From NCBI GenBank assembly GCA_017405115.1, contig JAFRBA010000060.1, positions 1-47,073 of the forward strand: DNA of 47,073 bases. The letters run 5' to 3'. Position 1 is the first letter of the stretch; every line of letters starts with the position of its first letter. The translations under genes were made by a program, and so were the position numbers. The notes under the pieces were generated by a model. The model made no database searches and was not told the origin of the DNA. It saw nothing but the letters and a program-made list of their open reading frames with translations. The DNA comes from Kiritimatiellia bacterium. Its GTDB lineage: Bacteria; Verrucomicrobiota; Kiritimatiellia; RFP12; UBA1067. Shown here piece by piece: positions 152 to 38,897 of this stretch.

Positions 152-3043
152 ATGGTAAAGTTCTGCTACAACAACGCTGTCGGGAGAGCGGCGAGGGCCG
201 CAGTTGCGGTCCTTGCGCTTGGAGCGGCATCGGCGGCATCGGCGGCGACGTGGACCAACGGCAACTGGTCCGTCGCCGAGAACTGGGCGGAGGGCGTGGT
301 GCCAGACGCAGGAGCGGCGGTGACGATAGACAACGCAACCGCCGGCGCGACGTTCAACGTGGACGTGGATTCGGTCTCCATAAGTTCGCTGACCTTCGCT
401 TCCGGCGGAAAGCAGTGCTACGTGGTGGGCGGCACTCTGAACATCTCGGCGTCAGCCGCCGTCGTCGCCAACCACTCCATGACGATCTCGAATTCCCTCG
501 TGCTGTCCCATGCGACGACAAAGCTGCAAGCCGCTACCAGCGGGCGCAGCTACTATTGCGGCGACGTCACCCTGACACATGCGACGGGCGACCTCTACAG
601 CTTTGGCAAGGGCGGCAGCACCTTTTGCGGAACCGTGACCGTGCCGCGAGACTTCCGCCCTGGCGGCGGCGCCCTTTGGCAGGGCGGCAGTAACCACTAC
701 TTTTACGGCCCGCTGAAGTGCCGCCACGTGCTGAACGCCTCGTCGTACGACGACACGACCTACCACTACGAATCCACTTCCAACAGCTGGACCTACTTCG
801 AGACCGGCAACTACGTTAGGAACGCGGTCGCCACGGACGGCGCATTGCCGGGGACGACAGTCCTGCGCGCATACGGGAGCGACTACTATTCTGGCGGCAC
901 ATGCAACCTGAATGGCACCGACCAGACGATCGACAGGCTGAGCGGCACCACGAAGAAGCTTACCGTGAACGGCGGCTCGACCGCGATGACGCTGACCCTA
1001 TGCGCGACGGCCAGCGACACTTCGAAGGCGGTGCTGAACGGTTCGCTCTCGCTCGTCTATGCGCCTACGGACTCAAGCTGCGCCCAGACGATCAACGGCG
1101 GCGAATGCTCGATGAACGGCTCGCTGACGGTTTCGAACGGCACGTTCCGCGTCTCCGGGGCGTCGTCGCTCGCGAACGTGAAGCGCATCGTCGTCGCGGA
1201 CGGCGCTACGTTCGACTTTGCGGTCTCGGCGACGAACGCGCTCGTCGGCGTCACGAACATCGTCCTCGGCGCGGGGGCGCATTTCACCATCGCCGCGTCC
1301 GCCGTGACGCCGTTCTCGGCGTCCGCCGTCACGCTGGAGGCGGATTCCACTGCAACGTTCGACCTGCCGGAGGGCGCGAACTACCTGTTTGCATCCGCAG
1401 TCGTGGACGGCGTTCCGCTCGACGGCGACACGTACACCGGCGGCGTCGCGCCGTTCTCCGGGACGGGCGAGATAACGGTGCCGGCAGTGGAGAAGCCGAC
1501 GGTCGACGCGACGTGGGACGGCGGCGGCGACGACGACGGCATCGCGACGCCGGGCAACTGGGACGGCAACGAAACGCCGGCGCTCGGCGCGGCTTCGCTC
1601 TATCCGCTTTTCGCCACGGGCGGAACGCAGGCGACGATCGACCGCGCGCTCGACTTCAAGGGCGTCCACTTCGGCGGAGCGTCGGGGAGGTTCGATCTCG
1701 TGTCCGGCGGTGGCGCGGCGAACCTTGCCGTGCGGCAGCTGGGCTTCGCCGTTGACGCGACGCACACGAACGCGGTGGACGTGCCGGTGAAGGTGAAGAG
1801 CGACCAGACGTGGAGCATTGGCGCGAATTCGACGCTACAGTTCAAGCAGCCCGTCGCGATGGACGTGGCGTATGCCGTGACGGTCGCCGGCTCCGGCGTC
1901 ACGACGGGTTCCGTCGACACCAAGCGGCAGACAAGCGTCTTGCGGATCGACGGGGACAACGGCTTCCTCGGCGACGTCACGATCAACAACGCGCTTGTCA
2001 ACGTCTATTCCACGACGAACGCCTTCGGACCCGCAAGCGACACGACCGTCACGCTCTCGGATTCAATGCTCTACCTTCACGGAAGCGTGATCGAGCGTCC
2101 AGTCAAGCTCAATGGACAGAACAACGAATACTACTGGTTCAGGCCATACGGCACGAACGTGTTCACCAAGATGTTCACGCAAACCTGCATTTACTGGAGG
2201 CCGGAGCTAAAAGGCAAAGTCATCACTGAAGGCGGCGTCACCGTGCAATGCGACGTCTTCTTCAACGGCGACGCGGGCACGGAGTGGATTGTTCGCGGAA
2301 AGCCATGGAAGCATACGGGAACTACCTCGGCGTACTGCCGGCTGGAAGTGAACAGCAGCTCCATCCGATTCGAAGTGGACGGCAACTTGATGCCGTACCT
2401 GTTCCTGAATGGCGGCCAGGTGCACTGCGAAGTGGACGATCCGTTCAACGGGAGGCCGGCCATCCAGTTGCAATGCAACAAACCAAACTCGACCTTGCAC
2501 CTGCATGGGCACGAGGTATCGTTTGGCACGATGGCCACCATGACGGCCGGCAGGATAGACAGCGACCTGCCAGGCATCCTGCGCCTTACCGCGCATAGCA
2601 CCACGATCACGAACAAGGCCGTGCGCTTCACGGGCGAGGCGGGATTCGAGATGGGCGGAACTGGAGCGGTGGTGTTCACGAACGCGATTGAGTCTGCAGG
2701 GCGCGTCGGCGTGACGAAGGGACGGCTGGAGTTCACCGAGACGGGCAGCTGGCTGAACTGCACGAACGTGACAGCGAGCGGGACGGGGCGGCTCAAGCTC
2801 GGACAGTCCAAGGTCTTCCACAGGCGCGCGAACCTGACGATTGTCGACAGCGGCGTGGTTGAGCTCGCGGAGGGCGTGAGCCATAGATTCCGCCACGCCT
2901 TCATTGACGGCGTGGAGGTAAAACCCGGCCTGTACTCCGGCGCGGAAGGGCCGAGCTCGGCGGACAAGACATACGCCGCGCACTTCGCGGGCAAGGGCGC
3001 GATCCGCGTGTGCGGCAACGGTTTCCTGCTGGTGTTCCACTGA
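152..3043 (+). CDS. Secreted beta-strand-repeat surface protein
   Basis: This 963-residue protein is probably an exported surface or adhesin-like protein. The ATG at 152 is chosen because it opens a clear Sec signal peptide (basic n-region, then an Ala/Val/Leu core, AxA-type cleavage near residue 30); the in-frame upstream start at 68 adds 28 unlike residues. The mature part is low in charge and rich in Gly, Thr, Ser and Asn. It has two units of the 'TW.. GNW.. NW ..G.VP' type found in autotransporter-associated beta-strand repeats, at the N-terminus and around residue 450. No autotransporter barrel is visible. It ends GFLLVFH, close to the GFLLMLW end of the beta-helix protein at 11026-13122. 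Its stop codon overlaps the next start (TGATG), so the downstream genes are probably coupled. Ligand and function are unknown. Confidence 0.8.
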   Translation: MVKFCYNNAVGRAARAAVAVLALGAASAASAATWTNGNWSVAENWAEGVVPDAGAAVTIDNATAGATFNVDVDSVSISSLTFASGGKQCYVVGGTLNISASAAVVANHSMTISNSLVLSHATTKLQAATSGRSYYCGDVTLTHATGDLYSFGKGGSTFCGTVTVPRDFRPGGGALWQGGSNHYFYGPLKCRHVLNASSYDDTTYHYESTSNSWTYFETGNYVRNAVATDGALPGTTVLRAYGSDYYSGGTCNLNGTDQTIDRLSGTTKKLTVNGGSTAMTLTLCATASDTSKAVLNGSLSLVYAPTDSSCAQTINGGECSMNGSLTVSNGTFRVSGASSLANVKRIVVADGATFDFAVSATNALVGVTNIVLGAGAHFTIAASAVTPFSASAVTLEADSTATFDLPEGANYLFASAVVDGVPLDGDTYTGGVAPFSGTGEITVPAVEKPTVDATWDGGGDDDGIATPGNWDGNETPALGAASLYPLFATGGTQATIDRALDFKGVHFGGASGRFDLVSGGGAANLAVRQLGFAVDATHTNAVDVPVKVKSDQTWSIGANSTLQFKQPVAMDVAYAVTVAGSGVTTGSVDTKRQTSVLRIDGDNGFLGDVTINNALVNVYSTTNAFGPASDTTVTLSDSMLYLHGSVIERPVKLNGQNNEYYWFRPYGTNVFTKMFTQTCIYWRPELKGKVITEGGVTVQCDVFFNGDAGTEWIVRGKPWKHTGTTSAYCRLEVNSSSIRFEVDGNLMPYLFLNGGQVHCEVDDPFNGRPAIQLQCNKPNSTLHLHGHEVSFGTMATMTAGRIDSDLPGILRLTAHSTTITNKAVRFTGEAGFEMGGTGAVVFTNAIESAGRVGVTKGRLEFTETGSWLNCTNVTASGTGRLKLGQSKVFHRRANLTIVDSGVVELAEGVSHRFRHAFIDGVEVKPGLYSGAEGPSSADKTYAAHFAGKGAIRVCGNGFLLVFH

Positions 3044-4362
3044 TGGCGACGCGCGTTTTTCCTTTCGCGGCTTCGTCCTTGACGAATCGAGTTCCACGCA
3101 AGGCGGGAGGCTGGCGGCTCGTTGCGGTTTGCGCGGCGGCGGTCGCCGCGTTCACGGCGGGGGCGCAGGGAGTCGCCGCCGAAACTCCCCGCGTTCTCGA
3201 CTGCCACGACTTCTGCTACTACCGCTGGCGCGGCGCTGGCGAGACGTTCGCGATGGTCACGGCCGTGCTCACGAACAGCCCGGCGCTGCGGAAGAAGTTC
3301 TGGGACAAGGTGGCGTCGGACACCACGCCCGTCATATACCAGCTCACGTTCCCCAAGACGCCTGGGTGGCGGTACAATCTGCCGACTAACATGACGGTGG
3401 CAATCAGCGCGATCGACGAGTTCTTCGCGCCCGGCGACGGAGTGACGCCATGCCCCGAGAAGCTCTTCGCGGTAACGCCGAGCGAGGAAAACATCGACTG
3501 GGCGGGGCAGGTAGAAATGCAGAACGCCATCTACGACCACCTCAAGAACAAGTACGGCGTGAGGACCTACCAATGGCTCACCGAACCATACAAGCCCAGG
3601 CTCAACATCCGGGCCGACGGCTGGGTGTTCGACGCCTACCACATAGAGGAACCGCAGAAGTTCCACGCGCACGTCGAGAGCTTCGTCCTCACGGGCGTGC
3701 CCGTCGTGGCGTGCCTTTGGGCGAGCGGCCATTTCTCGAAGTACTATCCCGACAAGTCGTGGGACGAGTTGACGCGCTTCACGCTGGAGCGTGTCGCGAT
3801 CTGCAGGACGCTCGATCTGCCGGTGGTGCTCTTCGCCGTCGCGGGACGGCTGGGGCAGGTGGACTTGTGGTTCAAGGACGCCGACAACCCGGGCGAACGC
3901 TACTATCGCGAGACGATCAAGCGCCACCTCGCCGCGATCCCGCAACTGGATCGGCCGGCGTGGAAGCCCGCGAAGAAGACCTGGACCGTGGCCTCCAACG
4001 GCGTCGCAGGGGCGAAGATCGACCTGAAGAAGTTCACGCTGACGAAGGAGACGACGTTCGGCGACGTGCATGAATGGAAGCTCACGAGCAGGGGGCTTGA
4101 ACTGACTGCGAAATCGGGCAGGCTTTCGTGGAACTTGCGCACCGTTGGCGGAGCGAGCGGCGGGCGGCTGACGCTGCGCCACTCGGCGGGGGCAAAGGGC
4201 AGGTTCTGCGGCATGGAGCTTTCTGCGGACGGCGTCACCGAAGTGGAGTGCGAGGAGTTCGACGCGCGCCCGGCGTTTCTGGAGGCGGAGGCGCCGATCG
4301 TGCTCCAGGAGATTTCATTTGAAGGCGAAGGCCTGGTTGAGAAAAAGGAGAACAAGCAATGA
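3043..4362 (+). CDS. Secreted protein of unrecognised family, paralogue 1
   Basis: A 439-residue protein. The ATG overlaps the TGA of the preceding gene, and a hydrophobic segment around residues 30-45 looks like a rather long signal peptide or anchor. I do not recognise the family. The core resembles a TIM-barrel hydrolase: alternating helices and strand ends carrying acidic residues, such as TPSEEN, QWLTEP, DGWVFDAY and SFVLTGVPVV. The C-terminal 100 residues look like a small beta domain. The whole protein aligns with the next gene (shared motifs FxYYRWxGxGETF, QLTFPKT, YGVxTYQWLTEP, FYRETIK-like). The context of secreted glycosidases suggests a glycan-directed role, but that is inference only. 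Confidence 0.75.
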   Translation: MATRVFPFAASSLTNRVPRKAGGWRLVAVCAAAVAAFTAGAQGVAAETPRVLDCHDFCYYRWRGAGETFAMVTAVLTNSPALRKKFWDKVASDTTPVIYQLTFPKTPGWRYNLPTNMTVAISAIDEFFAPGDGVTPCPEKLFAVTPSEENIDWAGQVEMQNAIYDHLKNKYGVRTYQWLTEPYKPRLNIRADGWVFDAYHIEEPQKFHAHVESFVLTGVPVVACLWASGHFSKYYPDKSWDELTRFTLERVAICRTLDLPVVLFAVAGRLGQVDLWFKDADNPGERYYRETIKRHLAAIPQLDRPAWKPAKKTWTVASNGVAGAKIDLKKFTLTKETTFGDVHEWKLTSRGLELTAKSGRLSWNLRTVGGASGGRLTLRHSAGAKGRFCGMELSADGVTEVECEEFDARPAFLEAEAPIVLQEISFEGEGLVEKKENKQ

Positions 4363-6050
4363 AGACTGAAATGGGCAGACTCGCGGCGGTTTGCGCGGTG
4401 GTGATTTGCGCGACCGCGCTCGGCGCGACATCGGACGTGAACTTGAAGGACCGCGCGCTCGGCGGCAATGACTTCAGCTACTACCGCTGGTCCGGCGCAG
4501 GCGAGACTTTCGTGATGACGACCGCCGCCGTCACGACGAATCTGGAACGGCGCGCCAAGTTCTGGAAACGGGTGGAGTTCGCGACCGTCCCGACAATCTT
4601 CCAGCTCACGTTCCCGAAGACGGCGCCAGACTGGAAGCAGAAGCTGCCGAAGACTGCGGAGGAGGCCGTCGCCGCCATCGACGCGTTCTTCGCGCCGGGC
4701 GAAGGCTTGGAGCCGTGCCCGAAGAAGATATACGCCGTGACGCCGTGCGAGGAGAACGTGACATGGGAGGGCCAGACCGAAGTGCAGAACGCAATAGCCA
4801 GGCACCTCAGAGCCAAGTACGGCGTGAAGACCTACCAGTGGCTGACCGAGCCGATGAAGCCCACGCTTGCGATACAGGCCGACGGCTGGGTGTTCGACGC
4901 GTACTGCATCACCGACCCCGGTTCGTTCTACGCGCACCTTGAAAGCTTCGTCCTCACCGGCGTGCCGGTGGTGCCGTGCATCTGGGCGAGCGGGCACTTC
5001 TGCAAGTACCACACGAACAGGACCTGGGACGACCTGACGCGCTTCACGGTGGAGCGGATGGACATGTGCCGCGCACTCGATCTGCCGGTGATGGTGTTCT
5101 CGGTGGCTGGCAAGTCGGGCAGCGTGGGGGCGTGGTTCGGGAAGACCGACGATCCTGGCGAACGCTACTACCGCGAGACGATCAAGCACTACCTCTCCGC
5201 CGTGCCGACGATGCCAAAGGCGTCTTGGAGGCCGGTGCAGAAGACGTGGCGCGCGAACGTCAAGCGCGACGGCACGGTGCGGTCCAAGGTGGACTTGAAG
5301 TCGTTCGGGCTTGTGGACGAAACGACGTTCGACGACGTCCGGGCGTGGCGGCTCGCCGACACGGGACTGAATCTCGTCGCCGGCCGAGGCCGGCTCTCAT
5401 GGCAGATGCGTCCGCAGGGGCGCGTTCGCAAGGGGCGGTTCTCGCTGCGCCATTCGCCGAACGCCAAGGGGACGTTCTGCGGCAGGCCGCTTTCGCCAAG
5501 GGGCCTTACGGAGATGGACGTCGGCGAGTTCGACTGCAAGACGCTGGTGCTGGACGCCACGGCGCCGATCACGCTTACGGAGCTCTCGTTCTTCGGAGAA
5601 GGCGATTGCAGCGTCGAGGTCGTGGGCGTGGAGATGGACACCTCGTACGGGCGCACGGATTACCGCCGCCAGTTCGCGTTTGACTCCGAAGAGGCGGCGC
5701 AAGCCGGCGAGAAAGGCCACGTGGCGAGGAAGCGCGTGGTGCGGAAGGTGCTGCTGCCGGGATGCGGCGGCAAGCTGATGGTCGAGGCAAAGGCGTTCGC
5801 CCACAAGTCGTATGCAGGATCGGTGAAGATGTGGCTGTCGCTCGACGGCGAGACGCCGCTGGCGGAGGTGGCGACTGCGGGCGACAACAAGGTCTGGCAT
5901 GACCTGTCGATAGAGCACAAGATAGCCGATGGCGTGGACGCGGTGTACCTGGTCTTTGATGTCGTTGTGTCGTGTGGCGTCAACACGGGCGCGACGGCTG
6001 GCGCGAAAGTGACGACCTGCGACTTCAAGTTTCGCCCCGAGCATCCGTAG
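4359..6050 (+). CDS. Secreted protein of unrecognised family, paralogue 2, with extra C-terminal domain
   Basis: A 563-residue paralogue of the gene just upstream, overlapping it by 4 nt (ATGA), so the pair is translationally coupled. A Sec signal peptide is clear (residues 1-25, ending ALGA). The first 410 or so residues match paralogue 1. The last 150 residues form an extra domain with a VYLVFDVVVS strand, reminiscent of carbohydrate-binding CBM6-like jelly rolls. A tandem duplication followed by gain (or loss in the partner) of a binding domain explains the pair. The 3' end overlaps the convergent AraC gene by 26 nt. Function is unknown; a glycoside hydrolase is a reasonable guess from context. 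Confidence 0.75.
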   Translation: MKTEMGRLAAVCAVVICATALGATSDVNLKDRALGGNDFSYYRWSGAGETFVMTTAAVTTNLERRAKFWKRVEFATVPTIFQLTFPKTAPDWKQKLPKTAEEAVAAIDAFFAPGEGLEPCPKKIYAVTPCEENVTWEGQTEVQNAIARHLRAKYGVKTYQWLTEPMKPTLAIQADGWVFDAYCITDPGSFYAHLESFVLTGVPVVPCIWASGHFCKYHTNRTWDDLTRFTVERMDMCRALDLPVMVFSVAGKSGSVGAWFGKTDDPGERYYRETIKHYLSAVPTMPKASWRPVQKTWRANVKRDGTVRSKVDLKSFGLVDETTFDDVRAWRLADTGLNLVAGRGRLSWQMRPQGRVRKGRFSLRHSPNAKGTFCGRPLSPRGLTEMDVGEFDCKTLVLDATAPITLTELSFFGEGDCSVEVVGVEMDTSYGRTDYRRQFAFDSEEAAQAGEKGHVARKRVVRKVLLPGCGGKLMVEAKAFAHKSYAGSVKMWLSLDGETPLAEVATAGDNKVWHDLSIEHKIADGVDAVYLVFDVVVSCGVNTGATAGAKVTTCDFKFRPEHP

Positions 6051-7050: not shown

Positions 7051-7072
7051 TTGCGGCGTGAGGAGAAAAAAG

Positions 7073-8740
7073 ATGGCAACGGCTGGAAAGAAATCCAAAT
7101 TTTTAAACTTGGCATTTATTGTGGCGGTGTGCCTTTCCGTCAATGCGGACAGCGCCTCGCCGCGCGTCGAGCGCCGAAAGCCGCTGACGGCGAATGTCGG
7201 AGTCGTATCGGTCGGGCTCGACACTTATTGGAAGCAGTGTCCCGGGCTTTACGACGACATGGTGAAGAAGGAAGACGCATTCGTGAGGATGTTGAACGTT
7301 GCGGCGGCGCGCTCGGCGAGCGCGCCCTACCATGCGGCCGACGGTAGGGCGGTTTCGATGAAACCGCCGAGCGGCTTGAACATCCACCGCTTCGGCATGT
7401 CGGACAATCCGCAGAAAGCGGCGTCGCTGATTCCGGCGATGAAGGCCGCCGACCTCGACTTGCTCTTCGTGGACATGGTGACGTATGCCACAAGCTCGAC
7501 GTTCGCGCCGTTCGTGCGCGAGCTCACCTGCCCGATCGTTCTCGTCGCGCTCCAGCCAGACTCTCGTCTCGACTACGAACACGCGACGATCTACAGGCAG
7601 CTCTACAACGACGACCTCTGCTCCGTCCCCGAATTCACCGGCGTCGCCATCCGCTATGGCCGCCCCGTCGCCGATGTCATCATCGGGCAGCTGGAGGGGG
7701 ACGCGAAGGCCAACGAGGAAATCCGGCAATGGTGCAGCGTCGCGCATGTCCTCCACGACCTGCGCCGCGCTCGGATCGGACTCATGGGGCATGTGCTGGA
7801 GGCCATGTACGACATGCAGGTAGACCCAACCGCCATCTCCCGCACCTTTGGCTGCCATGTCGCGCTCTGCGAGCCGGACGATATCTTGCCGTTCTACCGG
7901 GAGTTGGGGAACGGGGAACAGGGAACGGGGAACGGTAGGGCGGTTTCGATGAAACCGCCGGAAGCGCAGGCCGTCGCCGCCATGAAGAAGCGCATCCTCT
8001 CGTTTTTTGACACGCCCGATCCCGTTTCCGACCCGTGGACCGAAAAACTCACCGACCACGATCTTGATGTGGCTGCCAAGGCTGCCGTCGCCCTTGAGAA
8101 GTTTATCGAGAAGCGCGATCTCGACGGCTTCGCATACTATTACGAAGGCGAGGCCGGGTCGCCCACGCGCGAACTCGTTACGAACTTCATCGTCGGAAAC
8201 TCGCTCCTCACGGCGGCGGGCTTCCCGATGTGCGGAGAGTTCGACCTCAAGAACTGCATTGCGATGATGATCTTCGATCGTCTCGACATCGGCGGCAGCT
8301 TCGCGGAGTTCCATCCGATCGACTTCGAGCGAGGAACGGTTCTCGTCGGCCACGACGGGCCGCACCATCTCAACATCGCCGCGAAGAAGCCGGTTCTCCG
8401 CTCGCTCAAGAAGTACCACGGCAAGCCGGGGAGCGGCGCGGGCGTGGAGTTCAACATCAAGGAAGGGCCGATCACGATGATGTCCATCGGACTCAAGGCC
8501 GACGGTTCGTTCAAGTTCATCGTGGCGGAAGGGGAGTCGCTTGCGGGCCCCATACCTCCGACGGGCAACACAAATACCCACGGGCTCTTCAAGCCGGACG
8601 TCCGCACCTTCCTGCGCCGCTGGTCGATGGAAGGCCCGACGCACCATTTCGCGCTCGGCGTCGGGCATCACGCCGCTGAACTGAAGAAGCTCGGCCGCGC
8701 CCTCGGCATCGAGACCGTCGTCGTCACGGAGGAGAAGTAG
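7073..8740 (+). CDS. Signal-peptide-bearing L-arabinose/L-fucose isomerase-family protein
   Basis: A 555-residue protein resembling L-arabinose/L-fucose isomerases, which interconvert aldoses and ketoses and are normally cytoplasmic. The four metal/catalytic positions of AraA appear conserved: Glu389 (GEFDLKN), Glu412 (FAEFHP), His427 (VGHDGP) and His524/525 (GPTHHF), with spacings close to those of E. coli AraA. Unusually, it begins with a basic region plus a hydrophobic segment (FLNLAFIVAVCLSV) ending ADSA, like a Sec signal peptide. The ATG at 7073 is chosen for the GAGGAG site; a GTG at 7058 is possible. Two palindromic repeat copies are read through in frame (7343-7368 and 7906-7959), adding linker-like GRAVSMKPP segments. 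First gene of the operon, 2 nt before GH106. Confidence 0.8.
   Translation: MATAGKKSKFLNLAFIVAVCLSVNADSASPRVERRKPLTANVGVVSVGLDTYWKQCPGLYDDMVKKEDAFVRMLNVAAARSASAPYHAADGRAVSMKPPSGLNIHRFGMSDNPQKAASLIPAMKAADLDLLFVDMVTYATSSTFAPFVRELTCPIVLVALQPDSRLDYEHATIYRQLYNDDLCSVPEFTGVAIRYGRPVADVIIGQLEGDAKANEEIRQWCSVAHVLHDLRRARIGLMGHVLEAMYDMQVDPTAISRTFGCHVALCEPDDILPFYRELGNGEQGTGNGRAVSMKPPEAQAVAAMKKRILSFFDTPDPVSDPWTEKLTDHDLDVAAKAAVALEKFIEKRDLDGFAYYYEGEAGSPTRELVTNFIVGNSLLTAAGFPMCGEFDLKNCIAMMIFDRLDIGGSFAEFHPIDFERGTVLVGHDGPHHLNIAAKKPVLRSLKKYHGKPGSGAGVEFNIKEGPITMMSIGLKADGSFKFIVAEGESLAGPIPPTGNTNTHGLFKPDVRTFLRRWSMEGPTHHFALGVGHHAAELKKLGRALGIETVVVTEEK
7343..7368 (+). repeat. Intragenic REP-like palindrome, copy 1
   Basis: GGTAGGGC followed by a palindrome with arms GGCGGTTTC and GAAACCGCC around a GAT loop. 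It is read in frame as GRAVSMKPP inside the isomerase homologue. The same 26 bp recur at 7934-7959 and, with one change, at 10273-10298. Confidence 0.9.
7906..7959 (+). repeat. Four 7-bp tandem repeats plus REP-like palindrome, copy 2
   Basis: GGGGAAC, GGGGAAC, AGGGAAC and GGGGAAC (7906-7933) lead directly into a second exact copy of the 26-bp palindrome (7934-7959). The composite is 54 bp, exactly 18 codons, so the isomerase reading frame is preserved. Its translation is Gly/Asn-rich, then GRAVSMKPP, unlike the flanking domain sequence. Confidence 0.9.
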
Positions 8741-8742
8741 GA

Positions 8743-11022
8743 ATGTTGCGTAAGGCGATGTTCCTGACGGTTGCGGCCTGCGCGGCTGCGATTGCGCTGC
8801 CCGACGGCAGGTGCTATGCGGGGCTGGACCCTGCGGCGTTCGCCGGTCCGCCGCGCGAGAGCCGTCCGTGGACGTACTGGCTGTGGCAGAACGGAAATGT
8901 CGACGAGGAAGACGTGACACGCGACCTGGAAGCGATTAAGAGGCTCGGGTTCGGCGGTGTCCTCATGTTCGACAACAGGGGCTACGGCTACGAGGACGGA
9001 ATGCCCCCGGTCAAGCTCCAGGTGATGACGGAAGAGTGGTTCGACCGTGTCGCGTTTGCGATACGGGAGTGCGCCAGACTTGGGCTCGAGTTCGAGATGA
9101 ACGCGTCGTCGTCCGGCGGGTCGCTTTGCGGCTTTGCCGACGGCAAGTTCTACGAGGTGGACATAACAGACCCCGCAGCCGTGTCCAATCACCTTGAGCG
9201 CTTCTTAGGGCCGATCATACGGCGCGTGCCCGAAGCGGTTGGCAGCACGTTCACGCACATCTATTCCGTGAGCTGGGAGGGACGGGTGCCGCCTTCGGTG
9301 AAGCCGGCCGAGCGCGATGCGTTCATACTCAGGAACTTCTACGGCGTCATGCGGGAATGGGCCCATGCGCACGGGCTGAAGATGAGCGCCGAGTCTGGCG
9401 GGCCTTGGCATCGCACGCCTGGGCACTTTGCGGAATCCGACCAGCTCGCCTACCTCGGCGTGAACGACCTGCCGCAAGGGGAGTTCTGGCCGCAGGGGAG
9501 GCTTCTCCCGTGGTGCACGCCGATGCATCTCGTGAAGCCTGTGGCGTCCGCCGCGCACGTGCGCGGCCTCAGGCGTGTCAGCGTGGAGGCGTTCACCCAC
9601 ATGACGCACCACTGGTCAATGGATCCCGCCGCGCTGAAGAAAAGCGCAGACGACGCTTTCGCCGACGGCGCAAACCATTTCGTGTGGCACACGTTCACGT
9701 GCTCGCCGCCGCGCTTCGGGGTTCCGGGCGCCGAGTATTTCGCGGGGAGCCATATCAACCAGAATGTGACATGGCATGCCGACGCCGGCGCCTTCGTCGA
9801 CTACCTCGCGCGCTGCCAGTACATGCTGCAGTACGGCGAGCCCGTGGCCGACCTCGCCGTGAACGGCGGCGACAGGCCGTATCTCGACTGGGGGCACCAT
9901 CGCCTCGACGGACACGACTGGGATCTGCTGGACGACGCGGACTACAGGAGCCTGCGCCTCGAGGGCGACAGGCTTGTCCTGCCTTCCGGCCGCTCCTATC
10001 CGGCGACGCTGCCCGCGCCGGACTGCGAGGGCTGCGAGGCGTTCGCCCACCGACGGTGCGAAGCCGACGACTGCGACATCTACTTCCTCGTGGGTCCCGC
10101 GTTCCGCAACGCGACGCTGCGCGCGCCCTTGGGGAATCGCCGCGTCGAACTGTGGGATCCCGTGACGGGACGGCGCGCGCCGGCCGACGCCCGCCGGTTT
10201 CGAGACGGGCGCACGCGCGTCGCGCTCGACCTGCCGCGCACCGGAAGCTGCTTCGTCGTCTTCGCGCCGAATGGTAGGGCGGTTTCGACGAAACCGCCGC
10301 GTGAGGCGAAAACGGCGGCATCATCGATGCCGCCCTACCAAATTACTATCACCAACTCCTGGCGTGTTTCCTTTGCTTACCTCGACGGCATATCTGCAGC
10401 GCCGCCTGCGCCGGTCGAGATGGCTACGCTGCGCGAGTGGACGGCATGCGGTAGAGACGGCGAAGCCGCATCGACATCCCTCCGCTACTTCTCCGGCACC
10501 GCAACATACCGCACGACGGTGATTGTCGGAAACAACACGAACAACTTCAAGGACAACCTTGTATTGGACGGCTCGCAACCGCGAGCCGGTTCTAAAACCG
10601 CGCACAGTTGTGCGCGGAATGAAGAAAGTTGTTTTTACAGTTGTTCTAGTTGTTTCCCGACAATCCTCTCGCTCGGCGAGCTGCCATCCGGCCTCGCGCG
10701 CGTCTTCGTGAATGGCAAGGACTGTGGCGTCGTGTGGTGTGCACCTTGGGAAGCTGACGTCTCGTCCGCAATGCGCGAAGGCGAGAACGAGCTGGAGATA
10801 CGCTACACCAACAACTGGCACAACCGGCTCGTCGGGGACTGTGCCCTCAAGCCGGAGGAACGCGTGACGCGGACAACCGTCCGGCTGACGACGGAGAAGC
10901 GCGACGAGTTCGGCGACAAGCTGCCGTACAGCCGCGCGGTTTCTGCGCACGATCCGCTCATCCCGTCCGGCCTGCTCGGTCCGGTAAAGGTCGTCTACGA
11001 AACAACAAGAGATAAGGAATGA
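8743..11022 (+). CDS. GH106-type alpha-L-rhamnosidase (secreted)
   Basis: A 759-residue secreted enzyme. The signal peptide (residues 1-27, ending CYA) is followed by the family opening PRPWTYW-type motif, here SRPWTYWLWQNGNV, then LEAIKRLGFGGVLMFDNRGYG, a conserved Glu in SAESGGP (217) and another in VSVEAFTHM (282). The C-terminus is a GH2-like sugar-binding beta domain (SLGELPSGLARVFVNGKDCGVVW). GH106 enzymes remove terminal alpha-L-rhamnose, for example from pectin. It is shorter than many GH106 enzymes, although two palindromic insertions (10273-10339 and 10521-10665) sit in frame within the C-terminal part. Whether these leave the protein active is unclear. Start chosen for GGAG upstream and the signal peptide. 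It lies between the isomerase homologue and the beta-helix gene. Confidence 0.85.
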   Translation: MLRKAMFLTVAACAAAIALPDGRCYAGLDPAAFAGPPRESRPWTYWLWQNGNVDEEDVTRDLEAIKRLGFGGVLMFDNRGYGYEDGMPPVKLQVMTEEWFDRVAFAIRECARLGLEFEMNASSSGGSLCGFADGKFYEVDITDPAAVSNHLERFLGPIIRRVPEAVGSTFTHIYSVSWEGRVPPSVKPAERDAFILRNFYGVMREWAHAHGLKMSAESGGPWHRTPGHFAESDQLAYLGVNDLPQGEFWPQGRLLPWCTPMHLVKPVASAAHVRGLRRVSVEAFTHMTHHWSMDPAALKKSADDAFADGANHFVWHTFTCSPPRFGVPGAEYFAGSHINQNVTWHADAGAFVDYLARCQYMLQYGEPVADLAVNGGDRPYLDWGHHRLDGHDWDLLDDADYRSLRLEGDRLVLPSGRSYPATLPAPDCEGCEAFAHRRCEADDCDIYFLVGPAFRNATLRAPLGNRRVELWDPVTGRRAPADARRFRDGRTRVALDLPRTGSCFVVFAPNGRAVSTKPPREAKTAASSMPPYQITITNSWRVSFAYLDGISAAPPAPVEMATLREWTACGRDGEAASTSLRYFSGTATYRTTVIVGNNTNNFKDNLVLDGSQPRAGSKTAHSCARNEESCFYSCSSCFPTILSLGELPSGLARVFVNGKDCGVVWCAPWEADVSSAMREGENELEIRYTNNWHNRLVGDCALKPEERVTRTTVRLTTEKRDEFGDKLPYSRAVSAHDPLIPSGLLGPVKVVYETTRDKE
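10273..10339 (+). repeat. Double REP-like element inside GH106
   Basis: Two palindromes face each other. The left unit begins GGTAGGGCGG and has arms GGCGGTTTC/GAAACCGCC around GAC. The right unit has arms GGCGGCATC/GATGCCGCC around ATC and ends CCGCCCTACC, the inverse of the left head. This head-to-head arrangement is like REPIN elements. It is translated in frame as GRAVSTKPP...SSMPPYQ. Confidence 0.9.
10521..10665 (+). repeat. 145-bp hairpin element inside GH106
   Basis: The outer arms (10521-10545 and 10640-10665) are near-perfect inverted repeats starting GATTGTCGG and ending CCGACAATC. Inside are GGCTCGC/GCGAGCC (10570-10587), CGGTT/AACCG (10587-10600) and CCGCGCACA/TGTGCGCGG (10598-10617). 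It interrupts the C-terminal sugar-binding domain between TYRTTV and LSLGEL and remains open in frame, encoding Asn-, Ser- and Cys-rich sequence. The shape is that of a miniature inverted-repeat element. Confidence 0.85.
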
Positions 11023-20620: not shown

Positions 20621-20636
20621 CACACTATTTCAAGAC

Positions 20637-20716
20637 GGCGAAAGGTGAATGAATGACATGAACATGGAGAAGCTGATTGCCACGGTGGTGATTGCGGCGA
20701 CGGCGTGCGCATATGC
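20637..20716 (+). repeat. Duplicated ribosome-binding/signal-peptide cassette, copy 2
   Basis: Partner of 18860-18939; see there. The identical core is 20670-20713. The copy sits at the junction between GH20 and the DUF4838 gene. Confidence 0.9.
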
Positions 20717-23180
20717 GGGCCGCTGGGACGCTGAGCGCGCGGAGTGGAAGCGCTTCTGCGAGACGTTCGAGCCAGACTATTCCGACGGGTCGAAGTACCT
20801 CCACCCGAAGGAAGGCAACAGGTTCGACGAGCCGTTCGCGCTCGTCAAGGACGGAAAGCCCGCCGCGAAGGTTGTCTGGCAGAAGGGGCCGTGGTATGCG
20901 GACGACCTCTCGACCGACGTCACCGGCACGGCGGTGTCGGAGTTCGTCGCGCTCGTCAAGATGATCACCGGCGTGGAACTTCCCGTCTTCCCGTCCCCGC
21001 ACTACGGGCCCGACATGCCCGCGGTGCTCGTCGGCAAGGCGTGCTTCTTCCCGTACGACCAGACGGTGTGGCGGCAGCGGGTGCATGCGGAGAAGAACAG
21101 CCGCCTGACGCCGGCGATCGTCGAGACCGTGAACGGAGACCTCAAGGCCCTGCGCGGCTCGGACGGCTTCGCCATCCACCGGTTCGGACGCGACCTCGCG
21201 GTGTACGGCTGCTCCGAGAAGGGCGCGCTGAACGGCGTTTATGCACTTATCGAGAACAACACCGACATCATCTTCACGCGAACCGACGAGAAGGTCGGAA
21301 CGGTCTACTCCGAGCGTCCCGGGGAGCTTTCCCTCGTGTGGGGCGCGGACGTGCTGGAGAAGCCGTCGATGGAGATGCGCGGGTTCTGGAACCAGAGCAT
21401 ATACCCATGGCGACGCTACTGGAACGCGAACTACTGCACGACGTCCGAGTCCCGCCAGTGGAGCGACGAGCGGTTTTTCACGCGCGGCGGGCACAACTCC
21501 GGCGACTTCGTGCCGCCTGCGAGCGAGCGCCCGGACCTGCACGGCCTCGTCTCCGGCAAACGCGGCGACTACGGCTACATGCTCTGCTTCTCGAATCCGG
21601 ACCTTCCGGCCGTATACCGCGAAAGCGTGCTGCGCTACATGGACCAGCGGCAGCCGTCGCGTGCGGCGGGGCTGGACATCGGGCTCGACGACACGATGAA
21701 CTGGTGCGAGTGCGAGAACTGCGCGAAGCCGCTGCGCCTGCCTGACGGCCGGGCCCTGGAGCGGTCGGACCAGGCGTTCATGTGCACGCAGTGGTTTCTG
21801 CTCCTGAACGACAGCGCGCGCGCGCTGGCGACCGAATACCCCGGCATGAAGATCGACACCCTCGCCTACTTCCAGACGGCACCGGAGCCCGCGTGCGAAG
21901 TGGCGGAGAACATCGTCGTCGGATTCTGCCCGTACATGCGGGCGAACGACCTTGCGCCGGTCTATGCCGAGGAGAACGAGATCTGGATCGACCGCTTCGA
22001 GGGCTGGACCCGCAAGGTCCCCGACCGGCACCGGCTGTACATACGCGGCTACGACGGCCTCGGGCTGCTCTTCCCGCGTCCCCTCTGCCATACGCACCAG
22101 CGCGACTGGCGGCTCTTCGCGAAAGGCGCCTGCGGCATCAAGCACGAGGGGTCGGACACCGCTAGGCTGGACGGCGTCGACAAGGACGGCAAGCCCACGA
22201 CCGCGGCGAAGGTGTTCGACTACTCGGCGATCGAGTTCTGGGTGATGTGCCGGCTGATGTGGAACATTGACGCCGACGTGGAGCAGCTCTACAAGAAGTT
22301 CTGCTGGCGGGCGTACCGCGAGGCCGCGCCGGCGATGGAGCGGTTCTACGGCACGATCCGCCGCGACTTCCTGCGGCGCGGCATTCCGAGCACGATCGGC
22401 GAGGACGGTTCGAGCGCAACGAAGATCTACATTGTCGACGGCGGCAGGGAGGCGGAGCTGCGCGGCTATCTCGACGAGGCGCTTGCAAAGGCGAGGCACC
22501 CGAAGTCCCGCGTGCTTGTGGAGAGGGTGAAGGCGCGTTTCGAGCACTACGTGGATGCGGTTAAGAACGCCAAGACGAGCTCTCTCAACGTGCCGCTCGT
22601 CGTGCGGGTCCGCGACGCGGGCTTCGACGACGCCGACTGGAAGACCGCCGCCGTCATCGACCGTCTCTACGAACCCCTGGCGGCGAACGCGGGGCGCGAC
22701 GTGGAGGGCGCGCATCCGGCCCGGATCGAGCTGACGCACGACGGGAAGGCGCTGTCGCTGCGCGCGACGTTCTGGGAGGACATGTCGAAGATCGTCTCGT
22801 CGAAGGCGAAGCCGGGTTCCGAGGAGGTGTACGGCTCCAGCTTCGAGGTTTTCTTCACCGACAACTCGTCGCCCGACAGGTACTACCTCTTTCGGATGGA
22901 CAACGCCGGGAACGTGGCGGACTACATCGGCTACGACGACTCCTGGAACCGCAGGGGCACGACGACGGCGGTGCGGAAATACGACGACCGATGGGTGCTG
23001 CTAATGAAGGTTCCGCTGGAGGAGATCGGCATGGACATCATCCGGGACAACGTGCTGAAGGCGGCGTTCATCCGCGTGCGGCCGATCCAGGGCTCCAGCT
23101 CGAACATGGAGTACACGGGCTGGAAGTTCAACCAATTCCACAAGCCGGCGACATTCGGCACGCTGACCTTGCAGCGCTGA
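20658..23180 (+). CDS. DUF4838 glycosidase-like protein with CBM9-type domain, paralogue 1
   Basis: An 840-residue secreted protein. Order: signal peptide (1-18), an alpha-glucuronidase-like N-terminal domain (about 60-190; GFAIHRFGRDLAVYGCSEKGALNGVYALIEN), a DUF4838 barrel (about 300-570) and a C-terminal family-9-type carbohydrate-binding/DOMON-like domain (about 640-835). Cys350, Cys352 and Cys355 form a CxCxxC motif conserved in the two paralogues downstream, possibly a metal or disulfide site. DUF4838 proteins occur widely in polysaccharide loci, but the reaction is not established to my knowledge. The start at 20658 is chosen by analogy with the duplicated leader of GH20; 20649 is also possible. 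Last gene of the 16-kb operon. Confidence 0.85.
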   Translation: MNMEKLIATVVIAATACAYAGRWDAERAEWKRFCETFEPDYSDGSKYLHPKEGNRFDEPFALVKDGKPAAKVVWQKGPWYADDLSTDVTGTAVSEFVALVKMITGVELPVFPSPHYGPDMPAVLVGKACFFPYDQTVWRQRVHAEKNSRLTPAIVETVNGDLKALRGSDGFAIHRFGRDLAVYGCSEKGALNGVYALIENNTDIIFTRTDEKVGTVYSERPGELSLVWGADVLEKPSMEMRGFWNQSIYPWRRYWNANYCTTSESRQWSDERFFTRGGHNSGDFVPPASERPDLHGLVSGKRGDYGYMLCFSNPDLPAVYRESVLRYMDQRQPSRAAGLDIGLDDTMNWCECENCAKPLRLPDGRALERSDQAFMCTQWFLLLNDSARALATEYPGMKIDTLAYFQTAPEPACEVAENIVVGFCPYMRANDLAPVYAEENEIWIDRFEGWTRKVPDRHRLYIRGYDGLGLLFPRPLCHTHQRDWRLFAKGACGIKHEGSDTARLDGVDKDGKPTTAAKVFDYSAIEFWVMCRLMWNIDADVEQLYKKFCWRAYREAAPAMERFYGTIRRDFLRRGIPSTIGEDGSSATKIYIVDGGREAELRGYLDEALAKARHPKSRVLVERVKARFEHYVDAVKNAKTSSLNVPLVVRVRDAGFDDADWKTAAVIDRLYEPLAANAGRDVEGAHPARIELTHDGKALSLRATFWEDMSKIVSSKAKPGSEEVYGSSFEVFFTDNSSPDRYYLFRMDNAGNVADYIGYDDSWNRRGTTTAVRKYDDRWVLLMKVPLEEIGMDIIRDNVLKAAFIRVRPIQGSSSNMEYTGWKFNQFHKPATFGTLTLQR

Positions 23181-23243
23181 CGGAAAAAGGAGATCGTTCC
23201 GAAGCGGCACGCTCCCGCGCGAAAGCCATGCGGGCGGTCTCTT

Positions 23244-24413
23244 CTATCGATGGGACTTCCGCCATGCCGCCGGCGAGGAGCCGTGGCGGAGTTTGAACAG
23301 ACGTGTGAAGTACGACACATGGCGGAACGCGCAGGTGTTGGCGATTTCCGATATCGGCATGTCTGATTCCGCGAGCATCCGCTTTGCGCGCTCCATGCGC
23401 GTTTCTATGATTGCTTCGTTGATGGAGCGTCCGTCCACCTGTCTGAACCGCATGTCTAAAAGACGCCTCGAGACGCCGAGGTGTCTGGCAACGGTCTCAG
23501 GCGTTATGCCGAGGTGGGCGTGGCACCGAATGTAGTCGGCTGCGTCGACCGCAAGGTTGTAGCCAGTCGTCTTTGCCCGCGTCGACTCGCGATCGAAGAA
23601 CATGTGCCCGCGCGTCAGAACGTGGCGCACGGGTTGCGGCGTCCGCGCTCGGAGCAGCTTCTCCATCTCCCGTCCGGCGCTTTCCCCGAGCCCGACGTGG
23701 TCCGGGCAGAGGCTCGACAGCCGGGGCGCGTTCGAGAGGCAGTAGAACTCGTCGTTGTCCACCCCCACGATCGAGATGCCGGTGGGCACGGGTATAGCGC
23801 ATTCCGCGCAGATGTCCGCGACTAAGCGGGCGTGGTGGTCGTTGGCGACGAACAGGGCCGCGGGGCGGGGCAGGGACACGAGCCACTTCCTGAGATTGCC
23901 CCGGACGTCTTCGCCGAAGCCCTGCTCCGGCCGGCTGAACGCCGTCGCCGCTATGCCATTCGCCCGAAGCGCCGCGCGGAAGCCCTTTTCCCTGAGCAGC
24001 GAATACGCGACGCGCCCCGTCGGCACGAACGCATACGTCCTGAACTTTCCGAGGCCCATGAGGAGCTTTGCGGCGCTTCGCCCAAGCCCCTCGTCGTCGA
24101 CGAGCGTGTACGTGATGTCGCGCTTTCGCCGCTTCAGCGCCGTCTGCCCGAGCGTCGCGGACACGATCTTCATCTTCGACTCCGCGACGATCTCCTCCAG
24201 ATCCGGCGGCAGGTCCCGCAGCATGATCGCTCCGGCGACCCCGTCGCCCTCCATCCTGGCGAACGCGGCCTTGCTGATCGATGCGTCGTTGGGAAGGGTC
24301 TGGAGCATCCATCCGCCGTGCGTCCGTATCCAGGCGAAGAGCCCCGTCGCGAAGTCCCGTGCGGACTGCGACGAGAAGTCGATTATCGCCACGACTTTCA
24401 ATGGTCTTTTCAT
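23244..24413 (-). CDS. XylR-type regulator: sugar-binding domain plus AraC DNA-binding domain
   Basis: A 389-residue regulator. Residues 1-270 form a LacI/periplasmic-binding-protein fold (KVVAIIDFSS, FVANDHHARLVADIC, GISIVGVDNDEFYC), which senses a sugar. Residues 285-389 form an AraC double helix-turn-helix (GITPETVARHLGVSRRLLDMRF and ISEIANTCAFRHVSYFTRLFKLRHG). This is the layout of E. coli XylR. The start is supported by the fold and by an extended -10 only 9 nt upstream. It is divergent from the DUF4838 pair at 24543 and convergent with the operon ending at 23180. It probably regulates the DUF4838 genes. Confidence 0.92.
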   Translation of the reverse strand: MKRPLKVVAIIDFSSQSARDFATGLFAWIRTHGGWMLQTLPNDASISKAAFARMEGDGVAGAIMLRDLPPDLEEIVAESKMKIVSATLGQTALKRRKRDITYTLVDDEGLGRSAAKLLMGLGKFRTYAFVPTGRVAYSLLREKGFRAALRANGIAATAFSRPEQGFGEDVRGNLRKWLVSLPRPAALFVANDHHARLVADICAECAIPVPTGISIVGVDNDEFYCLSNAPRLSSLCPDHVGLGESAGREMEKLLRARTPQPVRHVLTRGHMFFDRESTRAKTTGYNLAVDAADYIRCHAHLGITPETVARHLGVSRRLLDMRFRQVDGRSINEAIIETRMERAKRMLAESDMPISEIANTCAFRHVSYFTRLFKLRHGSSPAAWRKSHR

Positions 24414-24422
24414 TGCCGGGGA

Positions 24423-24428
24423 ATTATA
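24423..24428 (-). promoter_or_regulatory. Extended -10 of the XylR-type regulator (near-leaderless)
   Basis: On the minus strand AATATGA-TATAAT is followed 9 nt later by the ATG. The predicted leader is about 2-3 nt and has no ribosome binding site. Confidence 0.6.
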
Positions 24429-24437
24429 TCATATTTC

Positions 24438-24492
24438 TTGCCGGAGAATGCAATCGCCGAATTGCGACGGCAACGTTTTCTTGCTTCAAAGT
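24438..24492. promoter_or_regulatory. Candidate operator cluster between regulator and DUF4838 genes
   Basis: TTGC-8 nt-GCAA occurs at 24438-24453 and again 43 bp downstream at 24481-24496, each preceded by TTTC. A third, tighter TTGC-4 nt-GCAA lies at 24462-24473. The downstream copy overlaps the -35 region of the gene at 24543. Symmetric sites repeated about four helical turns apart suit a dimeric sugar-responsive regulator. Confidence 0.45.
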
Positions 24493-24508
24493 GCAAGCGG
24501 GATTTTGC

Positions 24509-24514
24509 TATAAT
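24509..24514 (+). promoter_or_regulatory. Extended -10 for the DUF4838 pair
   Basis: TGC-TATAAT, an extended -10. Transcription should start near 24521, about 22 nt before the ATG at 24543. The ATG at 24513 lies inside the -10 and cannot be the start. Confidence 0.6.
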
Positions 24515-24542
24515 GTCCACAATTGCGCCATCTAATGCAAAC

Positions 24543-27140: not shown

Positions 27141-27145
27141 CGGAG

Positions 27146-29536
27146 ATGCGTACGGCTGTTTTCCTCCTTGTGCTTTCTGCCGCGTTCGCATCGGGCGCGG
27201 CGGAGCGAGACGTTACGGTTTGGCGGCTGCCGCTCGACGCCTCGAAGTGGAGCGGCGACGGGCGCAGCGACGGTTCGGTGTCGGTGCTGGAGGAAGGCGG
27301 GACGCGCTTCCTCCGCCTGTCGTGCACGCGCAACACGAACGACTGGGGCTTCGCGGCGCACGCCGTCCTTCCGGAGCGGTGGACGGTCCCTGAGGGACGG
27401 CTAATGGTGCGCTGCCGCGTGCGCCAGAGCCGCCGCGTGATGATGGGCGCGTTCTGGGGCATGTGGTATTCGCCGCGCCGCGCGTTCGGCAAGCCGGTGT
27501 ATGTGGCGTCCGCCCCGATGCAACGGCTGATCGACGAACTCCACCTCGACACCTTCCCGGTCGGCGTGTGGATCGACTGCGAGGAAGACGCCCGGTGCCT
27601 CACGAACATCGTCGACCGCTTCACGGTGACGCTGAACGTCCAGGGCGGCAAGCCGGGCGAACAGACGAGCGTCGACATCGCGGACTTCGAGCTCTTCATG
27701 CGCGACGACCCGGAGACCGTCGCGAAGCGGGCGGAGTGGGAGAGCTTCCGCCGGAACTTCCGCGCGGACTATTCCGACGGGTCGAAGCACCTTCTGCCGA
27801 AGGAGGGGAACCGCTTCAAGGCGCCGTTCCGCGTGGCGGAAGGCGGCAAGCCCGCCTGCCAGATCGTCGTCGCGAGCACGCCGTGGTGGTATGAGAAGCT
27901 GTGCAACGAGACTACGGCGAAGGCCGCGTCCGAGCTCCAGCGCCTCCTCCGGCTCATTACGGGGGCGGAGGTGCCGGTCGTCGGGCTGCACGGGCTGAAG
28001 GAGGAAATCCCCTCGATCTTCGTCGGCAAGGGGTGCTTCCGCTTCGCCGGGACGTGGCGCGCCAAGAGCATGTGGCAGCGCCGCGCCACGAACAGCGACG
28101 ACCCGGCGTTCTTCGAGATGGAGCGCGACCTCGCGGCGCTGGAAGGAACCGACGGCTTCGCGATCCGCTCGCTCGGGCGCGACGTCTACGTCTACGGCGC
28201 GTCCGAGAAGGGCGCGATGAACGGCGTCTACGCGCTCGTCGAGAACAACACCGACTTCATCGCGGTGCGCCCGAACCCGAAAATCGGCTGCGTGTTCACG
28301 AAGAGCCCAGACCTCTCCCTCGTCTGGGGAGAGAAGGTCCTGGACGTCCCGAAGGGGAACGTGCGCGGGTTCTGGAACACGCTCGGGTTCGAGTACTGGA
28401 ACGCCAACCGCTGCTCCAATTCGCCGCGCCCGTGGACGGACGCGCTGCCGTACACGCGCGGCGGGCACAACATCAGCAACTTCCTTCCGCGCTTCGAGGA
28501 GCATCCCGAATACTACGGGCTCTACGACGGCCGCCGCGACAAGGCGTACGGCAACATGCAGTGCTTCGCGAAGCCGGACTTCGACAGCGTGACGCTTTCG
28601 CTCGTGAAGAACTTCGCGCGGGCGGTGCAGATGACCGAGCTCGCGGGGCTTTCGGTTTCGCTCGACGACAGCAGGCGCTGGTGCCAGTGCGACCTCTGCC
28701 AGGCGCCGATCCGGCTGCCGGACGGGTCGGTCGTCGACCCGCGCGACCGCGACTTCATGTCGACGCGCTACTTCCTCTGGCTGAACAAGGCGGCGCGCGA
28801 ACTCGCGGCGGCGCATCCCGGCAAGGGCGTCAAGACGATCGCGTACTTCCAGAGCGTCGAGCCGCCGCGCTGCGACATCGAGCCGAACATCGGCGTCGGG
28901 TTCTGTCCGTACCCCGTCGCCGACGACCTCGCGCCGGTCTTCATGCCGCAGAACATGCGCTGGCTCAGGCGCCTCGCGGGCTGGTCGAAGAAGGTGCCGC
29001 GCAGCCGGCTCTACATACGCGGCTACGACGGGCTGGGAATGGCGTTTCCGCGTCCGCTCGCGCACACGCGCGCCCGCAACCTCCGGGAGTTCTACCGGTA
29101 CGCCGACGGCATCGACTCCGAGTCGGTGGCGTCGTCGCGCGACGGCCCCGACCCCCGGACGCACGAACGCTCCTCGACGATGGACACGATGGACATCACG
29201 GCGATCGAATACTGGGTGACGATGCGGCTGTACTGGAATCCGGACGAGGACGTGGAGCAGCTCTACAAGAAGTTCTGCTGGCGGGCGTTCCGCGAGGCGG
29301 CCGTTCCGATGGAGCGGTTCTACGGCGCATTCCGCGAGGAGATCATCCGCGCCGGAGTGCATCCCAAGTGGAATTTCGACGTGGGTACGCTCAAGTGCCT
29401 CGACGAACTCCGCGCCCGGCTCGACGAGGCGGAGGCCGCGGCGAAGCATCCGGTCAGCGCGCAGCTTGTCGCGTGCGCGAAGCGGCGGTTCCTGGAACTG
29501 GTCGAAGCGTCGAAAGCCAAGAAGGCGAAGAAGTGA
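27146..29536 (+). CDS. DUF4838 glycosidase-like protein, paralogue 3, rearranged accessory domain
   Basis: A 796-residue secreted protein. The signal peptide (residues 1-19, ASGA) is followed by an extra 170-residue beta-rich domain absent from paralogues 1 and 2. The shared part then begins at AEWESFRRNFRADYSDGSKHLLPKEGNRF and continues through the alpha-glucuronidase-like domain (GFAIRSLGRDVYVYGASEKGAMNGVYALVEN) and DUF4838 (CxCxxC as CQCDLC). It stops after the barrel, with no family-9-type domain. So the accessory domain is N-terminal here and C-terminal in its siblings. The start is supported by GACGGAG directly upstream. Co-transcribed with paralogue 2. Confidence 0.85.
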   Translation: MRTAVFLLVLSAAFASGAAERDVTVWRLPLDASKWSGDGRSDGSVSVLEEGGTRFLRLSCTRNTNDWGFAAHAVLPERWTVPEGRLMVRCRVRQSRRVMMGAFWGMWYSPRRAFGKPVYVASAPMQRLIDELHLDTFPVGVWIDCEEDARCLTNIVDRFTVTLNVQGGKPGEQTSVDIADFELFMRDDPETVAKRAEWESFRRNFRADYSDGSKHLLPKEGNRFKAPFRVAEGGKPACQIVVASTPWWYEKLCNETTAKAASELQRLLRLITGAEVPVVGLHGLKEEIPSIFVGKGCFRFAGTWRAKSMWQRRATNSDDPAFFEMERDLAALEGTDGFAIRSLGRDVYVYGASEKGAMNGVYALVENNTDFIAVRPNPKIGCVFTKSPDLSLVWGEKVLDVPKGNVRGFWNTLGFEYWNANRCSNSPRPWTDALPYTRGGHNISNFLPRFEEHPEYYGLYDGRRDKAYGNMQCFAKPDFDSVTLSLVKNFARAVQMTELAGLSVSLDDSRRWCQCDLCQAPIRLPDGSVVDPRDRDFMSTRYFLWLNKAARELAAAHPGKGVKTIAYFQSVEPPRCDIEPNIGVGFCPYPVADDLAPVFMPQNMRWLRRLAGWSKKVPRSRLYIRGYDGLGMAFPRPLAHTRARNLREFYRYADGIDSESVASSRDGPDPRTHERSSTMDTMDITAIEYWVTMRLYWNPDEDVEQLYKKFCWRAFREAAVPMERFYGAFREEIIRAGVHPKWNFDVGTLKCLDELRARLDEAEAAAKHPVSAQLVACAKRRFLELVEASKAKKAKK

Positions 29537-29592
29537 CGGGCGAGAGCCGTTATGTAATACTTAACACTACTAAGAATGAAATGGAGGTTGTC

Positions 29593-38878: not shown

Positions 38879-38897
38879 GTGCGGAAACGGAGGTAGG

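Follow-up and report, generated by a model that had tools for sequence, protein, structure and literature searches.

REPs (repetitive extragenic palindromes) of the GTAG superfamily have been described in the PVC superphylum by Di Nocera et al. (2013; PMC3733652), and the accessible part of that paper gives a REP as a palindrome of 20–40 bp, with a stem of 5–13 bp and a loop of 2–20 bp. A flanking RAYT gene is often, although not always, associated with GTAG REPs. According to the same text, most REPs are intergenic, and intragenic GTAG REPs occur in many species of several phyla and are most numerous in the verrucomicrobium Opitutus terrae, with an emphasis on replication and repair genes; within one functional class they lie at different sites, except in recB, and neutral insertion into linkers or loops is considered. 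Rickettsia palindromic elements (RPEs; Ogata et al. 2000 and 2002, as presented in the texts cited here) are selfish palindromes of about 100–150 bp found in frame in many unrelated genes, and end in CGTC in R. conorii (accessible parts of PMC10969869, PMC3767692 and PMC3733652, the last for the CGTC end). In our literature search, Verrucomicrobia together with REPIN and RAYT led only to PMC3733652, and Kiritimatiellae together with both palindromes and repeats led to works that, by title, concern communities and symbioses. A description of loops shared by several unrelated repeat families was not found in the literature covered, most subscription papers being outside that coverage.

Here we analyzed a stretch of 47,073 nucleotides from a Kiritimatiellia bacterium, hereafter the window. 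An earlier note on this DNA had proposed that an isomerase-family gene contains selfish palindromes whose translation is tolerated as a linker, with Rickettsia as the best-known parallel. The first idea is supported, as it fits most of the tests that could be run, i.e., recurrence, dispersal, empty sites and predicted loops. The parallel stands insofar as RPEs are the older case, but not as the sole one, GTAG REPs within genes having been reported in 2013 (PMC3733652, accessible part). The intragenic kind of REP has therefore been known since that year, and what is new, within the literature searched, is that fixed places in enzymes are filled not only by REPs but also by unrelated repeats.

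Results

GTAG Hairpins in Two Adjacent Genes

The genes and repeats concerned are the following (window coordinates, strand, description).

7058..8740, plus strand: host gene 1, L-arabinose/L-fucose isomerase family protein of 560 aa (Pfam, Foldseek)
7306..7331, minus strand: REP hairpin GGTAGGGCGCGCTCGCCGAGCGCGCC, reads RSASAPY, within residues 83–92
7343..7368, plus strand: REP hairpin, copy 1 of the 26-bp unit, reads GRAVSMKPP, residues 96–104
7906..7933, plus strand: four heptads, GGGGAAC/AGGGAAC, read GNGEQGTGN
7934..7959, plus strand: REP hairpin, copy 2 of the 26-bp unit, reads GRAVSMKPP, residues 293–301
8743..11022, plus strand: host gene 2, GH106 alpha-L-rhamnosidase family protein of 759 aa (PF17132, E 2.3e-55)
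10273..10298, plus strand: REP hairpin, copy 3 of the unit (one mismatch), reads GRAVSTKPP, from residue 511
10314..10339, minus strand: REP hairpin GGTAGGGCGGCATCGATGATGCCGCC, reads TAASSMPPY
10519..10662, plus strand: a different repeat, also in frame, about 144 bp long and containing two hairpins (10569–10588 and 10598–10617), at the second variable GH106 site

The earlier note had reported identical 26-bp units twice in one gene, and we located both, at 7343–7368 and 7934–7959. Their codons begin exactly at 7343 and 7934, as counted from the gene start at 7058, in the frame that gives GRAVSMKPP, and the four heptads (the third being AGGGAAC) form together with the second unit a block of 54 bp, or 18 codons, in agreement with the same note. 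When up to three mismatches were allowed, the unit was found three times in the window (7343, 7934 and 10273), while none was expected from 100 dinucleotide shuffles. Beyond these copies, we found GTAG hairpins in the opposite orientation at 7306–7331 (palindrome 7306–7326, with GTAGGGCG at 7323 on the minus strand) and at 10314–10339. The two adjacent genes carry five GTAG-tagged hairpins, each of which is open in the frame of its gene. The TTTC unit has a single open frame on its own strand, which is the one used, and three on the other strand.

The five window hairpins belong to the GTAG superfamily of REPs, three features of which they show. All consist of GGTAG and a hairpin, the tag standing outside the palindrome at one end. 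They measure 26 bp, with a stem of 9–10 bp and a loop of 3 bases or 1, the single-base loop of the ten-pair copies being, on paper, below the 2–20 bp given in the accessible part of PMC3733652. As for dimers, the geometry of the sequence gives a head-to-head pair in the isomerase gene (7306–7331/7343–7368, 11 bp apart), which also holds a single REP copy behind the four GGGGAAC-type heptads; the GH106 gene has a pair oriented tail to tail (10273–10298/10314–10339, 15 bp apart). Pairs occur also in the related genome G009 (e.g., C9:125473/125514). Compared with the accessible text of PMC3733652, the elements are like published GTAG REPs in the GTAG outside the palindrome, the stem of 9–10 bp, the dispersal in relatives, the head-to-head and tail-to-tail dimers, the several stem types per genome, and the in-frame copies and double insertions within known genes. 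With RPEs they share the character of palindromic selfish DNA in frame, with orthologues that have the insert at the matching place (PMC10969869, PMC3767692 and PMC3733652, accessible parts). Unlike RPEs, which are Rickettsia elements, the window hairpins have a GTAG end rather than CGTC and are 26 bp rather than 100–150 bp long.

The repeat at 10519–10662 has AACAAC-rich ends, and a related peptide is found at the other GH106 site in the homologue P0136 and partly in P0143. Heptameric tandem repeats of the STRR type are known from cyanobacteria. As candidates for this type, the window heptads share with it the GGGGAAC-like tandem units of 7 bp, and are located here inside genes, at loops that also bear REPs. 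Elsewhere in the window, we noticed a TATGGTATAAT-like motif that occurs six times and might be an extended -10 promoter (15–38, 38860–38883, 40382–40405, 41044–41067, 43116–43139 and 45846–45869), a paralogous pair at 3010–6050, and a long coding stretch at 20625–30120 in three divergent copies spaced by about 3–4 kb.

The Host Genes and a Model of the Isomerase

Both host genes look functional. The isomerase matched PF11762 above the cut-off and PF02952 just below it, and its best Foldseek match was the L-arabinose isomerase 7chl (TMt 0.84). With the inserts excluded, comparison with the relative L003 gave a dN of 0.047 and a dS of 0.92, and the dN against three other relatives was 0.077 to 0.103; the dN/dS against the four was 0.05 to 0.11. 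The conservation of metal residues suggested earlier was borne out in an alignment of 48 sequences, where E394, E417, H432, H436 and H437 were invariant and H529 and H530 nearly so. By alignment to 7chl, these residues are putative metal ligands, and they presumably match those of the E. coli L-arabinose isomerase as well.

An AlphaFold model of the isomerase had a mean pLDDT of 84.3 and a confident core. Apart from the N-terminus, the segments with pLDDT below 50 were residues 87–104, which span most of the REP pair (83–104) between a helix (64–86) and a strand (106–115), and residues 287–295, within the heptad and REP block (283–301) between two helices (273–284 and 300–316). The inserts are thus predicted to be low-confidence loops, where the low pLDDT may partly stem from the thin alignment at these positions.

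The N-terminus of the isomerase (window 7058–7160) is signal-peptide-like. In the matched stretches, an N-terminal extension was present in 17 of 20 members of the close group vs. 10 of 53 more distant ones; this distribution, together with the signal-peptide-like start, suggests that the protein may be an exported sugar isomerase.

Filled and Empty Insertion Places in Homologues

The isomerase set comprised the best 120 of 6387 database matches and the window protein, 121 in total, with a core length of 506; P0001 is the window protein again, which is therefore counted twice. In the mature proteins, internal inserts of at least 4 residues occurred at three places only, core positions 67 (16 sequences), 176–181 (24) and 246 (52), while all others fell within the initial 20 positions or at the C-terminal end. 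At least one internal insert was present in 58 of the 121 proteins and all three in 7, while 63 had none. The inserts contained REP readings, GGGGAAC heptads and several further recurring peptides, leaving 2, 2 and 6 unclassified at the three places; these classes are peptide patterns picked after the inserts had been seen. On a FastTree phylogeny of the core, the filled or empty state changed at least 9, 11 and 25 times at the three places, counts in which gain and loss are indistinguishable and which have no shuffled control.

Comparing homologous isomerases with and without inserts, as the earlier note had advised, we found that close ones have empty or otherwise filled sites. In P0007, which shares 89% identity with the window protein, the first place holds a REP and the third is empty. 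In the DNA of 19 relatives most sites are empty, with a REP in L005 and heptads in L004 and L018; the latter arrays occupy the same site as window 7906–7933 and differ in length. TTTCAAC-type heptads and other palindromes were found at insert sites in L013, L015 and L073. For the locus comparison, 72 of 79 loci were used, with L029, L059, L068, L071, L077, L079 and L080 omitted as partial or second copies. Among the close loci (the window and 19 relatives, 72–85% identity), the first, second and third places were filled in 6, 1 and 7 of 20, respectively. That distant homologues might share the insert residues, which would have spoken against insertion, was rejected, as none of the 53 loci of 55–67% identity has an insert; at least 4 of the 53 (L022, L034, L056 and L061) are named Kiritimatiellae, and the contrast is thus one of close vs. 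distant loci rather than of taxon vs. taxon. The closest records include ones named Kiritimatiellae and Verrucomicrobia.

GH106 homologues, in the alignment rows printed, have variable inserts at two sites. P0128 and P0130 (52% and 50% identical) have the same REP dimer peptide as the window protein at the matching place. P0121, which is 93% identical, has other residues where the dimer lies, and hence does not offer a clean empty site.

Dispersal of the Elements in Related Genomes

A unit occurring nowhere else in the genome would, according to the earlier note, have refuted its reading. A copy lies in the next window gene, and the unit is dispersed in the genomes of relatives: its core was found in 4 of 20 genomes with close isomerases, with 12 copies in G009. 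Its absence from the remaining 16 of the 20 counts against a transposed REP, and no copy of the core was found in 79 genome loci around the isomerase. A plasmid collection gave no match to the unit, and two viral contigs contain a loose core of it. The hairpin unit of 7306–7331 is likewise repeated in G007 and G009. A looser REP pattern matched 87, 165, 44 and 22 times in G009, G007, G008 and G010, respectively, as compared with 2, 2, 0 and 2 matches of a reversed-pattern control, showing multi-copy dispersal in these genomes. Of 193 genomes of the class, 109 had a match, in many cases no more than background, and the maximum was 189 in G152 (control 0). The inner stem is left free by this pattern; in the fetched stretches, all five inner stem pairs were complementary in 55 of 63 matches in G009 and 22 of 39 in G007, with seven and five different fully paired stems, respectively. 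Eighteen stem variants selected for their pairing were also aligned; support for the stem is taken from the inner-pair count and not from this alignment.

Gene calls were made with a simple script based on codon usage, in 20 stretches of each genome (381 kb of G009 and 348 kb of G007), which had been picked for pattern matches, so that the division into inside and between genes is that of a sample. In G009, 43 of 84 REPs lay inside called genes, 38 between them and 3 at edges (one tally gave 85 hairpins, 84 being those that begin with GGTAGGG); in G007, the corresponding numbers were 16, 11 and 2 of 29. REPs were scarcer in genes than expected by chance, at 51% vs. a coding fraction of 0.88 in G009 (binomial p 9e-17) and 55% vs. 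0.90 in G007 (p 2e-6). The earlier statement that REPs normally avoid genes is right in this sense of under-representation, but intragenic GTAG REPs had already been published (PMC3733652, accessible part). Coding-like flanks were present on both sides of 33 of 43 in-gene REPs in G009 and 12 of 16 in G007. Unlike the REPs in the accessible text of PMC3733652, about half of the copies sampled in these two genomes lie inside called genes, the close kin are named Kiritimatiellae, fixed places per enzyme also take unrelated repeats, and a frame bias was measured, as described below.

REP hosts are genes of many kinds, and unrelated proteins share the same REP peptides. Hosts in relatives include CTP synthase, the carbamoyl-phosphate synthase small chain (CarA), a glycyl radical enzyme and an acyl-ACP thioesterase. 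In G009, a REP of CTP synthase reading GRDARPARP runs into a gap relative to 9kao, and two REPs of CarA lie in or beside gaps relative to 1cs0. A CTP synthase was identified in 15 of 18 relatives, and the sequences of sufficient length differ at three places, mostly the second and third; a REP-like reading recurs in G004. The solved homologue of the glycyl radical enzyme has its own residues where three REPs lie, which does not indicate a clean insertion, and the best PDB match of the thioesterase stops before the REP. One called G009 gene (L131:5804–8545) has nine in-frame REP hairpins, and matches DUF4838 and a metallophosphatase, perhaps as a fusion.

Reading Frames of In-Gene REPs

The frames of 59 pooled REPs were compared with a null in which every open frame is equally likely (Monte Carlo, 20,000 draws). 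The GGRGATALP-type frame, the first of the opposite strand, was used 30 times as compared with 12.8 expected, and the two Arg-rich frames only 2 and 4 times, with 11.0 and 12.8 expected. The pooled p was 5e-5, the lowest value that 20,000 draws can give; restricting the count to one REP per gene, the first in each of 35, gave a p of 0.005. By genome, the bias was significant in G009 (p 5e-5) and not in G007 (p 0.28). These data suggest a filter acting at the level of the protein, a reading to be taken with caution because the gene calls come from a simple script.

Candidate Transposase Genes

Matches to PF01797 were found in 20 of 20 genomes (68 matches; above the cut-off in 19 genomes), and all 20 open frames examined contain the H-x-H motif. 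A GGTAGGG element within 1 kb of the PF01797 gene was absent at 18 of 20 fetched loci, some loci ending at contig ends, and present at two, L109 and L118, both with imperfect stems. Another GTAG palindrome, with a 14-pair stem if G-T pairs are allowed, lies upstream of the likely start of a RAYT-like gene in L109 (4052–4085) and L114 (3121–3153), and its core also adjoins REPs in L082. Repeated in-frame peptides (GASRPG; RRQDGGSPSQGG; SCRSADGPSA...NAGEPPALRH) were seen in PF01797-bearing open frames of L111, L124 and L128.

Discussion

We consider it likely, with a probability of roughly 80%, that GTAG REPs were transposed into genes and kept where benign, and that the loops in which they lie are permissive sites. 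By this mechanism, the isomerase and GH106 genes would have received copies of single REPs and of head-to-head or tail-to-tail pairs; the enzyme responsible would most likely be a transposase of the HUH (RAYT) type that works on the hairpin in its single-stranded form. Of the REPs that land in genes, most would have been lost, and those retained would be in frame and in length-tolerant loops, tending to be read as mild linkers over Arg-rich peptides. We infer that the inserts would be translated and neutral, and that the filter on the protein may be the cause of the frame bias. The same loops also gather heptad arrays and other repeats, which argues that they are permissive sites and not the targets of any single element.

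An alternative is that the repeats arise in place, by slippage or recombination among existing repeats, without transposition. The heptad arrays, which vary in length at the same sites, are consistent with this, as are the lack of a transposase tied to the REP family at the 20 fetched PF01797 loci and the other residues of P0121 at the dimer's place. However, identical units at unrelated loci of several genomes, in both orientations and as dimers, require copying between loci. Slippage could account for the heptads but hardly for the REPs, and we regard an origin in place as unlikely overall.

It is also conceivable that the inserts are adaptive, repeat-lengthened loops being retained for altered oligomerization, stability or secretion, as the same places are filled repeatedly and P0128 and P0130 have the window's dimer at the same GH106 site. 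We think this quite unlikely, since the inserts differ freely in sequence and length, 63 of the 121 isomerases lack them altogether, the same peptides occur in unrelated proteins, and nothing in the low predicted confidence points to a defined role. A role of the hairpins in mRNA, in pausing, decay or attenuation, with translation being incidental, would be in line with the stems of 9–10 bp and with the RNA functions of REPs proposed in the accessible part of PMC3733652; it appears very unlikely given that heptads and other repeats occupy the same places instead and that hosts are of many kinds. Finally, although related records are largely metagenome-assembled, an assembly artefact or pseudogene is hardly credible in view of P0001 (100% identical over 99% of the query, on a contig of 8011 bases, and representing 5 member sequences), the dN/dS of 0.05 to 0.11 vs. 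four relatives, the same elements in other genomes and the confident core of the model.

Beyond the transposition of GTAG REPs into genes and their retention in permissive loops, we tentatively propose, while doubting that it will hold in full, that the conserved enzymes of this clade each have a few fixed docking loops that admit unrelated repeat families, so that in-frame insertions in essential enzymes would be turned over genome-wide and the repeats shaped as harmless linkers. Selfish DNA translated inside working proteins is rare, and the present findings would add a further uncultured lineage, and enzymes of the kind of CTP synthase, to the cases known. REP-filled loops may provide a natural map of insertion-accepting sites in enzymes, and both the frame bias and the recurrence of the places allow a direct test, by the comparison of filled and empty orthologues, of whether such inserts are neutral passengers.
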